A stretch of 31,569 nt of DNA from a virus. Positions 1,457 through 30,126 of the stretch are shown here, piece by piece (the first letter of the stretch is position 1; each line of letters starts with the position of its first letter). The notes beneath the pieces were generated by a model that saw only the letters and a program-made list of their open reading frames with translations, was not told the origin of the DNA and made no database searches. Position numbers and translations under genes: made by a program. Location of the stretch: positions 1-31,569 of IMG/VR virus record IMGVR_UViG_3300042468_000288, one strand, 5' to 3'.

Positions 1457-1798
1457 TTAAACCTCACTCATTATAGTCACCACCCTCATCCCCGACAACC
1501 GTGCCAATTCAACATTCTGCTTTATCCTGTTACGGAATGCTTCGGCTTGGTGTACGCTTGTGAAATCATCATCTAACTTTGACACTTTGCGCTTTAACCG
1601 CTCGACAACATCGCTGATAATATCAACCACATCGTGAATAGTTGTGTTGTGTACCATTGCAATTTCGGTTGTGGTTAAGCCGTTGTTGTATTGCAGCCAC
1701 ATATCCCAATGTTTAATCTCAATAGTTGCAGGTCGGATGCTATCCCGGTACGCATCTGACACCACACGTATTGCTTTGCGTGTTTTAGTTTTAGCCAT
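1457..1798 (-). CDS. Small helix-turn-helix protein (sigma region 4-like)
   Basis: The start is placed at the ATG at 1798 (MAKTKTRKAIRV, 113 aa) because a near-perfect Shine-Dalgarno AAAGGAGGTGG lies directly upstream at 1802-1812; a longer reading to 1843 lies inside the preceding gene and has no such signal. Residues about 35-75 (YNNGLTTTEIAMVHNTTIHD, then helices with VVERLKRK) form a helix-turn-helix like that of sigma-70 region 4 and phage regulators. The basic N-terminus is consistent with DNA binding. It overlaps the upstream gene by 8 bases. Together with the two alpha-CTD-like neighbours it suggests a small transcription-control cluster, which is inference. Confidence 0.65.
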   Translation of the reverse strand: MAKTKTRKAIRVVSDAYRDSIRPATIEIKHWDMWLQYNNGLTTTEIAMVHNTTIHDVVDIISDVVERLKRKVSKLDDDFTSVHQAEAFRNRIKQNVELARLSGMRVVTIMSEV

Positions 1799-1985
1799 TT
1801 GCCACCTCCTTTCTCCATTCAATAAGGTGCGTATGCAACTCATTGAAGTTTGTGCATCTGCGAGGTTGGGTTAGTTTCGCACCGCCATTAATTCGTGTTG
1901 CATTGGCAGTTGGGATGTGGCAGAATATTGCCTGCATCCATTCTCGTGCGCTGAATTGAGCGCGGATTTCTTTTAGTAGGTTCAT
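1791..1985 (-). CDS. hypothetical protein, 64 aa
   Basis: Not recognised. Contains EIRAQFSAREWMQAIFCHIP near the N-terminus and a basic, mostly helical C-terminus. The leader contains the 8-mer AACTAAAC (1997-2004 on the complementary strand) and ends in ACCTATG, a pattern repeated before 2780, 3125, 4960 and in variant form 7825. Its 3' end supplies the Shine-Dalgarno of the next gene. Confidence 0.6.
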   Translation of the reverse strand: MNLLKEIRAQFSAREWMQAIFCHIPTANATRINGGAKLTQPRRCTNFNELHTHLIEWRKEVANG

Positions 1986-2066
1986 AGGTATTTGGGGTTT
2001 AGTTTGTTGTGTATGCGATATAATTTAGCGGGTAGCGGGTAGTTATGACCAATGCAGTTGGAACGC

Positions 2067-2780
2067 TCAAAAAAGACGTTGTTGCGAAATAAAATCTGCA
2101 TATCGTTTGTTTTGTTTATCAAAATAATCCTTATCAATTTCGCATCCGATAAAGTTTAATTTATATCTATTCGCTGAAATTCTACTACTGCCAGAACCTA
2201 AATGAGTATCAAGTATTTTCATCCCATCTTTTGCGTATTTGTAAAAAATCCAATCGTATAATTTTACAGGTTTTTGCGTTGGATGAAATTTACTTTGTTT
2301 GTCCAAATAAGCCGAGTATCTAAACATTTTAGGAGCTTTATCGTACGAAGTCCAAGCCATTTCACAATCTGCAAATGATAGTCCTTCTGGTATTTCTTTG
2401 TCCCAAATAATGTAGTTTTTACAAGGTGGCAAATCGAAGTAATTTCCACCCCAAATAATTTGCTCTTTTGATACTCTAAATAATTGTTCAAAATATTCAG
2501 CAGTTGGCGTTTCTTTATCCCAGTCTTTTGGCTTCCATTTTCTATTTTGTATTTTAGAAGCCTTTTTGCTTTTACCTGCGCCCATATTCATATTAGCTAA
2601 ATCTAATCCGTATGGTGGGTCAACAACGGCTAAATCAAAGTAATTATCTGGATAACGCTTCATTACTTCAATACAATCTTCGTTATAAACATCGGAGAAG
2701 CACTGGTCATAACAAGTGCTATAAGAAATAGCGGGTTCTGTGCTTTCTGAAAGTTCAGGTGTATTTTTAAAATCAGTCAT
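2067..2780 (-). CDS. Beta-class DNA amino methyltransferase (N6-adenine or N4-cytosine)
   Basis: Transfers methyl from S-adenosylmethionine to an exocyclic amino group in DNA. The catalytic motif IV DPPY is at residues 54-57, HPTQKP at 166-171 and the SAM-binding motif I LDTHLGSGSS at 190-199. Motif IV before motif I defines the beta class. Length (237 aa) is normal for phage enzymes. No restriction endonuclease is next to it, so it is an orphan; protecting phage DNA from host restriction is the likely role. It is the last of four same-direction units separated by attC-like repeats, and its leader (GCGGATTAATAA, AACTAAAC) resembles that of the cytosine methyltransferase unit. AT-rich relative to the virion genes. 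Confidence 0.92.
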   Translation of the reverse strand: MTDFKNTPELSESTEPAISYSTCYDQCFSDVYNEDCIEVMKRYPDNYFDLAVVDPPYGLDLANMNMGAGKSKKASKIQNRKWKPKDWDKETPTAEYFEQLFRVSKEQIIWGGNYFDLPPCKNYIIWDKEIPEGLSFADCEMAWTSYDKAPKMFRYSAYLDKQSKFHPTQKPVKLYDWIFYKYAKDGMKILDTHLGSGSSRISANRYKLNFIGCEIDKDYFDKQNKRYADFISQQRLF

Positions 2781-2815
2781 AAATTTAAAGTTTAGTTTTT
2801 ATTAATCCGCTACTT

Positions 2816-2838
2816 CTCATAGCACCATACGTTATAAG
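2816..2838 (-). repeat. Collapsed attC-like site D
   Basis: On the plus strand a degenerate box CTCATAGCAC (2816-2825) is followed five bases later by GTTATAAG (2831-2838), the same outer boxes that bound sites A-C but with the long inverted-repeat arms missing. The flank AATCCGC just to its left (2805-2811) is also present left of site A (4467-4474 region). It looks like a site whose hairpin was deleted. The upstream ORF stops in it (TGCTTATAACG). Confidence 0.45.
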
Positions 2839-3125
2839 CAATTGCTAAGAACCTGCTTCCAATTGACTTTTTCGCCACAATAAGGACAGTAAACAAATCT
2901 GCTTAAATATCCTTTTCTACCATCTACTATTTGATTTTTAGTTTGTGGTTCACCATTCAATAATCCATACTTTTTAAAAGTTGGTTGAATGTTTACAATC
3001 TTTTCTACTTCATAATCAATGGTAGATTTGTTTACTTTTTCTCCGCTAAGAAATCCTACTAAGCAATCGCAACTGCTTATAACATCGGTTTTGCAATAGT
3101 GGGGCTTTTGTGCTTTATTGGTCAT
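2832..3125 (-). CDS. Small Cys-rich (zinc-ribbon-like) protein, 97 aa
   Basis: Function unknown. A CDC pair near residue 20 and CPYCGEKVNW near the C-terminus look like the two halves of a small zinc-binding fold, a pattern seen in many short phage proteins. The only usable ATG is at 3125, which places the first 17 codons inside attC-like site C: codons for D-V-I-S are read from the GTTATAAGC box. The ORF ends N-C-L-stop with the TAA inside the next box (TTGCTTATAACG, site D). So the coding frame runs from inside one repeat to the next. Leader contains AACTAAAC. Confidence 0.65.
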   Translation of the reverse strand: MTNKAQKPHYCKTDVISSCDCLVGFLSGEKVNKSTIDYEVEKIVNIQPTFKKYGLLNGEPQTKNQIVDGRKGYLSRFVYCPYCGEKVNWKQVLSNCL

Positions 3126-3208
3126 TTGTATTTCTATTTAAGTTTAGTTGTGGGTTGAACATTTGTGCCTTGAAACCCCACCATCGCAAAGCCGCAATCC
3201 GTTATAGG
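3076..3208 (-). repeat. attC-like inverted repeat, site C (133 bp)
   Basis: Outer boxes on the plus strand are CTTATAAC (3076-3083) and GTTATAGG (3201-3208). Inside them, arms at 3087-3104 and 3176-3193 are inverted copies matching at 15 of 18 positions, with a 71-base centre. The three differences are transitions; the two at the CAATA/CGATG positions coincide with those in sites A and B. The upstream WDGH gene stops within the GTTATAGG box, and the downstream gene starts inside the element. Length and layout fit the 57-141 bp range of integron attC sites, though the boxes do not meet the strict RYYYAAC/GTTRRRY consensus. Confidence 0.65.
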
Positions 3209-3618
3209 GCATTTAAAGAAGCCAGCCGCACAAGTACATCTTGCGGAGTGTGCCCATCAAATTCAAAATCCGCTTTTTCCGTAATTGGTACTTGGAATAA
3301 ATCCCAATCGCTCATTTTATAATGGTTGCTTATTTGCCCGCTTGGTAAAATCGCTACTACAATAAACCATCCGCCCCCAAAACATAATTCACCATTATAG
3401 TGTTTTACACTTTTGTGTACTTGGTATTTAGCGTTACCATTGCCGTCACCGCTTTTTGCCCATTCATTAAATAAGGCGGCATTATATTGTTTCCTAAAAT
3501 CATACAATTCATTAAAAGTATGGTATCCGTCCGATAGTTCGTTTTCTTTAAATTCGGAATCATTTGCCTTACCCCATTTAATTAAATCGTTAATAATGTC
3601 AATAAATTTACGTTCCAT
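3202..3618 (-). CDS. WDGH-type phage protein, 138 aa
   Basis: Resembles a small conserved phage family whose members share NELSDGYHTFNELYDFRK, CFGGGWFIVV, SGQISNHY.M.DWDLFQVP and a terminal W/F-DGHTPQDVL; here the WDGH is FDGH. Biochemical function is not known. The start is chosen at the ATG at 3618 (MERKFIDIINDL), where family similarity begins; a longer frame to 3657 runs into repeat B. The stop TAA lies in the CCCTATAACG box of site C. It forms a one-gene unit between attC-like sites B and C. Confidence 0.8.
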   Translation of the reverse strand: MERKFIDIINDLIKWGKANDSEFKENELSDGYHTFNELYDFRKQYNAALFNEWAKSGDGNGNAKYQVHKSVKHYNGELCFGGGWFIVVAILPSGQISNHYKMSDWDLFQVPITEKADFEFDGHTPQDVLVRLASLNAL

Positions 3619-3637
3619 TTTGATAAGAATAAACGCC

Positions 3638-3767
3638 CTATAACACAGTATAACCAAAATTGGGGGCGTGTGCCAGTTCGGTTATTTCGCTCACTATTGT
3701 AATTTTTAGTCGGTGGACAGGTAAGCGTTTCAAATCCCCCAACTTCGGTTATACTCAACGTTATAAG
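3638..3767 (-). repeat. attC-like inverted repeat, site B (130 bp)
   Basis: Outer boxes on the plus strand are CTATAAC (3638-3644) and GTTATAAG (3760-3767). Arms at 3747-ward are AGTATAACC.AA.TTGGGGG at 3647-3666 and its inverted copy at 3736-3755, matching at 18 of 20 positions, with a 69-base centre. The two differences are A/G transitions at the CAAAA/CGAAG positions, the same as in site A. The cytosine methyltransferase ORF stops in the right box (TGC TTA TAA), and the WDGH gene begins 20 bases past the left box. Confidence 0.7.
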
Positions 3768-4444
3768 CAAGCCGAGCTCTCAGCTCCGAACAAGCCTATC
3801 TGTTCAACATTATTTGCATTATAGATATTCATTGCACTTTCAAATATTGCCTTTCCAATTTCGGGGTCAACACAATTACGCAACAATTTATCTTTATCAT
3901 TAAAATCATATTTACTCAAATCAAACCCTAATTTGTCAAGGTTATTTTGCCTAATTTTAAATTGTGCCTCACCGCCTAAGTCTGATTTTTTGCCATTCAT
4001 TCTACCAATTTGTTTTTCTACTTTTAAGTTAGGTATTTTGAAATTTGACCAGAAATAATGCCTTCCGCTAATTTGAGGTTTTATTAAAGGTTCATAGTAT
4101 GATTTTACATTTTCAATACAATATTTGCCTTTAAAAAACTGCTCCAACAATATTATTTCTTGATACAATCCCATATCTGGATACCTAACTATTCCTTGTG
4201 GATTTAAAAAAAAATTAGTTACTGAATGAGTAGGGCAAGGCGGTGATGCCCAAATAAAATCAAACTCCGAATAATGCTCTAATAAAAATTGGTGAGCATC
4301 TCCTACAATAACCTTGTCATTAGGATATAAGTCTTGATAAATTGTTGCTATTTTAGCATCAAATTCTACTGCGGTAATATCGTGTTCGTTTCCCCACAAC
4401 TTTCTGTTGCCCCCGATACCAGCATATAAGTTCAATATTTTCAT
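3761..4444 (-). CDS. DNA cytosine-5 methyltransferase
   Basis: Methylates C5 of cytosine in DNA with SAM as donor. Motif I is NLYAGIGG (residues 5-12), motif IV is ASPPCPTHS with catalytic Cys70, motif VI is ENV (111-113), and a motif X-like stretch RNCVDPEIGKAIFESAM lies near the C-terminus. GRHYFWSNF (127-135) may stand in for motif VIII. At 227 aa it is short, so the target recognition region is small. No restriction partner is present. The gene is AT-rich and fills one unit between attC-like sites A and B; its stop TAA is part of the site B box. Likely role: shielding phage DNA from host restriction. Confidence 0.88.
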   Translation of the reverse strand: MKILNLYAGIGGNRKLWGNEHDITAVEFDAKIATIYQDLYPNDKVIVGDAHQFLLEHYSEFDFIWASPPCPTHSVTNFFLNPQGIVRYPDMGLYQEIILLEQFFKGKYCIENVKSYYEPLIKPQISGRHYFWSNFKIPNLKVEKQIGRMNGKKSDLGGEAQFKIRQNNLDKLGFDLSKYDFNDKDKLLRNCVDPEIGKAIFESAMNIYNANNVEQIGLFGAESSACL

Positions 4445-4480
4445 TTCAATTTAAGTTTTTCGTTAATAATCCGCAACTAC

Positions 4481-4569
4481 TTATAACACGGGTTTGGCAA
4501 AAGTGGGCAGACACATCCTGCTAAATTTGAGCATCCTAAAAGCCCACCTTCGCCAAGCCCGAAAACGTT
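4481..4569 (-). repeat. attC-like inverted repeat, site A (89 bp)
   Basis: On the plus strand a TTATAAC box (4481-4487) and a terminal GTT (4567-4569) enclose inverted arms CGGGTTTGGCAAAAGTGGGC (4489-4508) and its inverted copy at 4542-4561, matching 17 of 20, with a 33-base centre. Read on the minus strand, two of the three differences are G.U wobbles and one is a C.A mismatch; on the plus strand two are A.C mismatches. The upstream 57-aa ORF stops at the right end of the element. The shortest and most divergent outer box (GTTCAAT) of the set. Confidence 0.65.
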
Positions 4570-4742
4570 CAATCCCCCTCCTCATCATTTATCCGCTTCA
4601 CCACCGCCTTGTATTCGGCAGTAGCTTTAAGCCGTTTTATTTCGGCTCGGATGTGGTCACGGTACATTTCGGGTATGCGTATACGCACGGCTTTTGGCTC
4701 TAATTTGCGCCCTTGGTTTCGGTCGGAGTGTGGTCTGGTCAT
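4569..4742 (-). CDS. Small basic protein, 57 aa
   Basis: The start at 4742 (MTRPHSDRNQGRKLEPKAVR) is chosen because it overlaps the previous stop as ATGA; a longer frame to 4805 lies wholly inside that gene. The sequence RIRIPEMYRDHIRAEIKRLK has a short strand followed by a helix, as in ribbon-helix-helix DNA-binding proteins, but the family is not certain. It ends at attC-like site A. Confidence 0.6.
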   Translation of the reverse strand: MTRPHSDRNQGRKLEPKAVRIRIPEMYRDHIRAEIKRLKATAEYKAVVKRINDEEGD

Positions 4743-29959: not shown

Positions 29960-29977
29960 CGGCAAACCCTTGCTACT

Positions 29978-30019
<42 letters not shown>

Positions 30020-30126
30020 AATAAAGAAATACGGAAAACTCCCACGTTTCTTATATTGCGAAAAAACACCGTAGTTATGTTCACTTTTTGCGAATTTATT
30101 ACTTTGCTGATTATCATATAGTTAGT

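Follow-up and report, generated by a model that had tools for sequence, protein, structure and literature searches.

The closest described systems are the sedentary chromosomal integrons (Vibrio) and the CALINs of virulent phages. Qi et al. 2023 (PMC9892861) reported phage CALINs with methyltransferases, including that of the Polaribacter (Bacteroidota) phage P12002L, and found some of the sites to be active with IntI1. In a survey of integrons (PMC9024848), these elements were reported as nearly absent from Bacteroidetes, with a complete one only in Salinibacter ruber, and the 11 attC taxon models of PMC8352920 include no Bacteroidetes class. The Muminviruses of the Baltic Sea (PMC7077304), which are cultured virulent phages, carry methyltransferases together with the same class of site as described below; the word “integron” is absent from that paper.

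We analysed a stretch of 31,569 bases from an IMG/VR virus record (hereafter the window), in which terminase, portal, tape-measure and primase genes are present. It contains an array of four minus-strand genes flanked by two resident phage genes (Table 1). Like the phage CALINs, the array combines attC-like sites and DNA methyltransferases without an integrase, in a setting of virulent phages. The sites of P12002L differ in that they score poorly with our covariance model R1 (best E 0.03), and the accessible part of PMC9892861 describes no attI-like landing site, no empty-site comparison and no exact cassette swaps for the CALIN phages. With sedentary chromosomal integrons the system shares a one-direction array of single genes, hairpin sites, G/TT boxes and complementary cassette ends and, in Bacteroidota chromosomes, a likely attI at one end beside a tyrosine recombinase. 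It departs from them in that the recombinase has no additional domain and the attC arms are conserved in sequence, with G-T wobbles, and in that the phage genes are reversed and the phage has no recombinase. The window phage belongs to another genus than the Muminviruses and has another attI-like sequence.

Table 1 Features of the array and its borders in the window
Feature	Position	Strand	Remarks
Resident phage gene, 64 aa, attI-like edge of the array	1791..1985	-	kept in related phages
attI-like site TAAC-TACCCGCTACCCGC	2028..2045	-	two TACCCGC repeats; 3' end of array; exact motif match
Terminal box GTTATGACCA of the last cassette	2042..2051	+	equals right box of site D (10/10); D hairpin ends at partner box
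Inserted segment, four cassettes, 2,523 bp	2046..4568	-	missing in related phage L356 (blastn)
Cassette 1 gene, N6/N4 DNA methyltransferase	2067..2780	-	PF01555, E 2.5e-13; start codon within site D
attC-like site D, full	2704..2840	-	R1 62 bits, E 2.7e-13; not among training sequences
Cassette 2 gene, Cys-rich 97-aa protein	2832..3125	-	start codon within site C; unit ends mapped in ten viral contigs
attC-like site C	3074..3210	-	R1 135 bits; training sequence; same arms, other flanks in viral contigs
Cassette 3 gene, WDGH-domain protein	3202..3618	-	PF25311, E 4e-33
attC-like site B	3635..3769	-	R1 48 bits, E 2e-9; 20-nt arms 90% complementary; not a training sequence
Cassette 4 gene, C5 DNA methyltransferase	3761..4444	-	PF00145, E 1e-7; PHROG DNA methyltransferase
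attC-like site A, outer end of the array	4478..4576	-	R1 77 bits; training sequence; in relatives, sites follow the same resident gene
Resident phage gene, 57 aa, outer array edge	4569..4742	-	kept in related phages and in the empty L356

Genes and attC-like sites of the array

The three long imperfect inverted repeats to which an earlier note on this DNA had drawn attention are present, and the covariance model finds them as sites A, B and C, on the minus strand like the genes. A fourth repeat (2816-2838), described there as collapsed, proved to be the left part of the complete site D, whose far arm lies in the reading frame of the N6-methyltransferase. The genes between the repeats (C5 methyltransferase, WDGH, Cys-rich and amino methyltransferase) are indeed single open reading frames in one direction, and all have Pfam or PHROG matches except the Cys-rich protein, for which comparison with both collections gave no match. 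The start codons of the N6-methyltransferase (2780) and Cys-rich (3125) genes fall within the sites, and both frames cross the far arm. The same arrangement was observed in L369 (7994 and 11038), where phage cassette genes start in the centre of an attC with their frames crossing the far arm. An Rfam scan of the array region gave no match.

Our site and CALIN calls rest on R1, our own covariance model of the site family. R1 was built from an alignment (A1) of 24 sequences that excludes window sites B and D and includes A and C, which match the model partly by construction because both are training sequences. Across the 24 sites, 94.6% of the stem pairs are kept, and we counted 28 compensatory base-pair cells versus 9.6 in shuffled alignments and at most one with the partner slid. 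The repeats are thus of attC type, with a structure that is kept while the sequence covaries. Folding of single-stranded DNA gave z-scores against shuffles of -4.1 (A), -2.4 (B) and only -1.1 (C), so that energy alone would not settle the matter; conservation does. All or almost all of the 24 sites have G-T wobbles at two stem positions, and a third position is a constant mismatch, which makes the two strands non-equivalent and gives the site polarity. The boxes TATAAC and GTTATA depart from the GTTRRRY rule, as had been noted before, and on one side of site A the box reads GAAC. The R box of a 500-kb bacterial array of the same family likewise keeps GTTR with positions 5-7 mixed and thus departs from GTTRRRY.

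Complementary ends of cassettes

The rationale was that, if a cassette was once a circle, the right box before its gene and the left box after its gene should be complementary, and that the two boxes of one site, which now stem from different cassettes, should not match. Among 45 adjacent pairs from phages, 37 show agreement at 5-6 of the 6 variable box positions, versus 7.5% at random, and the two boxes of one site match at the random level only. For the 193 adjacent pairs of the 500-kb bacterial array, agreement is 91-94% at box positions 4-7 (29-51% for random pairs) and 94% at position 8 (73% for random pairs); same-site pairs are again at the random level. Within the window, B-right and C-left, C-right and D-left, and D-right and the terminal box each match at 10 of 10 positions, and by eye A-right GTTATAAGTA and B-left GTTATAAGCA match at 9 of 10. 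The two ends of a cassette are thus complementary to each other, as expected if a site is whole only in the circle.

An attI-like site and an empty locus

Directly after the terminal box lies the 18-bp sequence TAAC-TACCCGCTACCCGC. Even allowing 3 mismatches, 0.03 chance matches to this motif are expected. A further 25 viral contigs contain it; none of the bacterial loci compared does. In most cases the box before the motif matches an upstream right box at 9-10 of 10 positions, and a hairpin often ends there. When the relatives' left sequence was used to look for exact matches to an empty site, none was found. Among the contigs with the motif, however, is the related viral contig L356, in which GTAAC-TACCCGCTACCCGC comes immediately after the resident gene; here the same locus is empty. 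In a blastn comparison, the flanks (87% and 79% identity) adjoin each other in L356, while 2,523 bp separate them in the window. The whole segment between them was thus inserted at one point, and the array has a putative attI that would take cassettes at that point.

In related phages the same flanking genes enclose other cargo. Some of these phages have, in addition, a second occupied site, which separates two genes whose window counterparts overlap by 4 nt. This second insertion point was seen in L281 (13.8-14.8 kb), L283 (10.6-10.9 kb), L286, L289 and L290. By eye, the cargo in L281 (17708-18595) and L287 (8489-9424) is glycosyltransferase-like and PAPS-reductase-like, possibly representing DNA modification genes.

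With four attC-like sites and no recombinase nearby, the array is a CALIN by the usual definition (at least two attC sites, no integrase nearby). The description as CALIN-like given in the earlier note therefore stands as far as the missing recombinase goes and falls short in another respect, since the attI-like site makes the array more than a CALIN.

Movement of whole cassettes between phages

The exact arm pattern was found in 18 other viral contigs with different genes outside the boxes. The Cys-rich cassette, present in ten viral contigs including the window, is common to them from the left box of the upstream site to the terminal box and differs outside. Because this unit ends exactly at the boxes, the site and the gene downstream of it travel together. 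The ten copies, otherwise near-identical, differ in the 5-6 nt that separate TAAC from the stem; simple cassette transfer does not predict this variation, which counts against the cassette explanation.

Cultured Flavobacterium phages gave closer comparisons. Mumin6-1 and its relatives (Muminvirus) have eight sites (R1 E 4e-25 to 1e-8) in an array that holds four methyltransferase genes; with site C as a blast query against cultured phages, the Muminviruses reached only E ~2, versus 4e-25 with the covariance model. Aside from one 0.5-kb cassette lying between TAACGTT repeats, mumin6-1 shows 99.9% identity to mumin6-3 across 14 kb. Mumin6-1 and mymlan6-1 each have a different methyltransferase in one unit, with flanks that are 100% and 99.7% identical and junctions at TAACG. 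A second attI-like sequence, TAAC-TACAATATTACATG, marks the end of the last cassette in mumin6-1, tooticki6-1 and filifjonk9-1, and these last cassettes differ. Related phages thus differ in cassette content, through an empty locus, other cargo, and the exact gain and swap of cassettes. These comparisons show that units move whole, gene together with attC, and that their ends lie precisely at the AAC/GTT box.

The cargo is probably anti-restriction in nature, with DNA methyltransferases that can be swapped between phages. Among these cultured Flavobacterium phages, the LMO9 phages that plate 1,000- to 10,000-fold lower on LMO6 are reported to be all without a particular methyltransferase (PMC7077304), and this plating phenotype may be linked to a given cassette. 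The suggestion that such arrays form a new route for exchanging anti-restriction genes holds in part: phage CALINs with methyltransferases were already published in 2023 (PMC9892861), so the route is not wholly new, whereas exact cassette exchange between phages is seen here.

Reversed genes in phage cassettes

We counted gene orientation in units with matching boxes only. In bacterial cassettes the attC lies at the 3' end of the gene (70 to 2, 131 to 7 and 151 to 27 in three counts), whereas in phage cassettes it lies at the 5' end in 26 of 28 (14 to 0 and 12 to 2). The gene-then-attC order of integrons is therefore found in Bacteroidota chromosomes and not in the phages, where each cassette has the opposite order, a site first and its gene downstream. 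An arrangement with the recombinase at the wrong array end and cassettes reversed everywhere was ruled out by the strand counts, the bacterial cassettes being canonical. The reversal may plausibly follow from the orientation of the attI-like site, which points opposite to phage transcription: only cassettes in reverse would then be read with the phage genes, and their attC would sit where start signals are needed.

Sites and recombinases in Bacteroidota

Sites were found in Bacteroidota genomes as well as in related phages, as the earlier note had led us to look for. Among bacteria, the exact arm pattern was detected in at least 118 genome regions, nearly all of them from Bacteroidota. R1 sites (E ≤ 0.001) were detected in 123 of 296 evenly drawn Bacteroidota genomes (about 40%), to be set against the near absence of integrons reported for this group (PMC9024848), and in 1 of 149 control genomes from the Planctomycetota, the phylum of a Phycisphaerales genome. 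The phylum of another genome, G325, was tried as a Proteobacteria control and dropped, as it returned the same Bacteroidota set. This MAG (JASGCW010000224.1 and other contigs) is titled Limnohabitans and has 85 sites; its phylum group is Bacteroidota and the title looks wrong.

The MAG chromosome CP058707.1 has 417 R1 matches within 3.38-4.02 Mb. We count at least 300 sites, among the matches listed all on one strand, at 3.475-3.983 Mb (about 0.5 of 4.27 Mb), because the remaining 117 matches may include opposite-strand echoes of strong sites. An IntI-like gene lies at the end of this array (L226-L252), which would be a very large superintegron.

At 25 of 25 loci, chosen because an IntI-like gene lies near sites, all sites are on one side of that gene, the side facing the left boxes; the exception is a weaker recombinase match in G020:C14, on the other side of a site. 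Flavobacterium seoulense also has an IntI-like gene beside sites. At many bacterial loci no hairpin separates the last cassette from the recombinase gene. Four Chryseobacterium-type loci (L264, L266, L267 and L268) have in this position a conserved non-hairpin sequence, TAAC-NNCCAAATWTACGCAWTGCG, with internal repeats, which is a likely candidate for a bacterial attI.

The array recombinases keep the H-LRH and (all but one) Tyr motifs and a C-terminal SPLD. In 24 from Bacteroidota, the equivalents of IntI1 residues 198-228 and 243-252 are missing, and a gap of about 43 residues relative to V. cholerae IntI4 (2A3V) falls in the same region. The missing region is the additional domain, which is reported both to define IntI and to be required by it (cited in PMC9668308). 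An IntI with the additional domain is not what these arrays have; the case that the system works like an integron remains strong, and “canonical integron” fails on a tested feature. An integron-like enzyme lacking a domain considered indispensable would offer a test of attC hairpin recognition. The enzymes resemble XerA and the “site-specific tyrosine recombinase/integron integrase” family NF040815, against which they score 208-235 bits, near or over the cut-off of 220, and their best solved relatives are XerA-type. They differ from that family in keeping the IntI-typical SPLD tail and in adjoining attC arrays. TIGR02249 alone fails to separate them from XerC/XerD, since 14 of 14 control genomes also match, and no match over the curated integron-integrase cut-off was found in 16 site-bearing genomes.

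No integrase gene in cis was found in the phages. In agreement with the earlier description of an array without integrase, a tyrosine recombinase was sought in the rest of the window and none was found; nor was an IntI-like recombinase found in three related phage contigs or in the complete mumin6-1, this absence being certain only for mumin6-1 because IMG/VR contigs may be fragments.

Interpretation and alternatives

The box rule, the empty site, the exact swaps between siblings and the same chromosomal sites beside an IntI-like gene in Bacteroidota support reading the array as integron-like cassettes without an integrase, the layout proposed in the earlier note. We give a probability of roughly 85% to the reading that the phage carries an integrase-less integron platform with host-driven cassette exchange. 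Counting against it are the R box that departs from GTTRRRY and the absence, from the array recombinases, of a domain that IntI activity is reported to need. In plus-strand order, the platform would consist of the attI-like site followed by four cassettes, each a gene and then its own attC-like hairpin. Cassettes would move as circles recombined at G/TT. Since the phages have no such enzyme, the natural candidate is an IntI-like tyrosine recombinase supplied in trans by the Bacteroidota host; we infer both its identity and its activity. Genes reversed in their cassettes would run in the direction of the phage genes and could be started by signals in their own attC. Phages would thereby gain a precise route to swap anti-restriction genes.

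The sites could instead serve as short homology at which a phage annealing recombinase or host RecA shuffles genes. They share arms, phages are mosaic, and similar repeats could pair. The junctions, however, share 5-7 nt only (TAACG, TAACGTT) and switch there and not in the longer conserved arms, and homology predicts neither box matches between unit ends with the two sides of one site unmatched nor a constant attI-like sequence at one end only. We therefore regard this explanation as unlikely. Slightly less likely again is that a canonical IntI with the additional domain, in unsampled hosts, moves the cassettes and that the domainless enzymes are unrelated neighbours: IntI1 does recombine some phage attC sites, including one of the Polaribacter phage (PMC9892861), but the 16 site-bearing genomes yielded no integron integrase over the cut-off, and the domainless enzymes lie at one array end at 25 loci.

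That another mobile system, for example homing endonucleases adjoining the genes, moved the cluster as a block is very improbable. HNH genes are often near phage methyltransferases (P12002L), yet the units here move singly, between boxes, and the Pfam and PHROG comparison found no endonuclease gene inside the window array. We give almost no weight to the sites being intergenic palindromes or transcription terminators without a role in gene movement; the palindrome objection had been raised in the earlier note itself. Sites are intergenic and fold as hairpins, but the box rule, the empty site and the exact cassette gain and swap contradict this view, which the comparison of sibling phages refutes, and sites C and D overlap coding sequence, unlike terminators.

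Beyond the platform itself, we lean, at little better than even odds, towards a wider picture in which Bacteroidota own a largely overlooked integron-like branch with a domainless IntI-like enzyme. Phages would exploit it in trans through attI-like sites and a separate pool of reversed cassettes, whose upstream attC would supply start signals, and would trade anti-restriction methyltransferases in this way. A literature search, thin on subscription journals and so no proof of absence, showed neither the site class nor an integrase-less attI-like platform in virulent phages to have been described, and likewise gave no account of cassettes reversed in phages or of array recombinases that lack the additional domain.

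Elsewhere in the window, a long AT palindrome with 25-nt arms and no loop lies near the primase gene (29974-30023).
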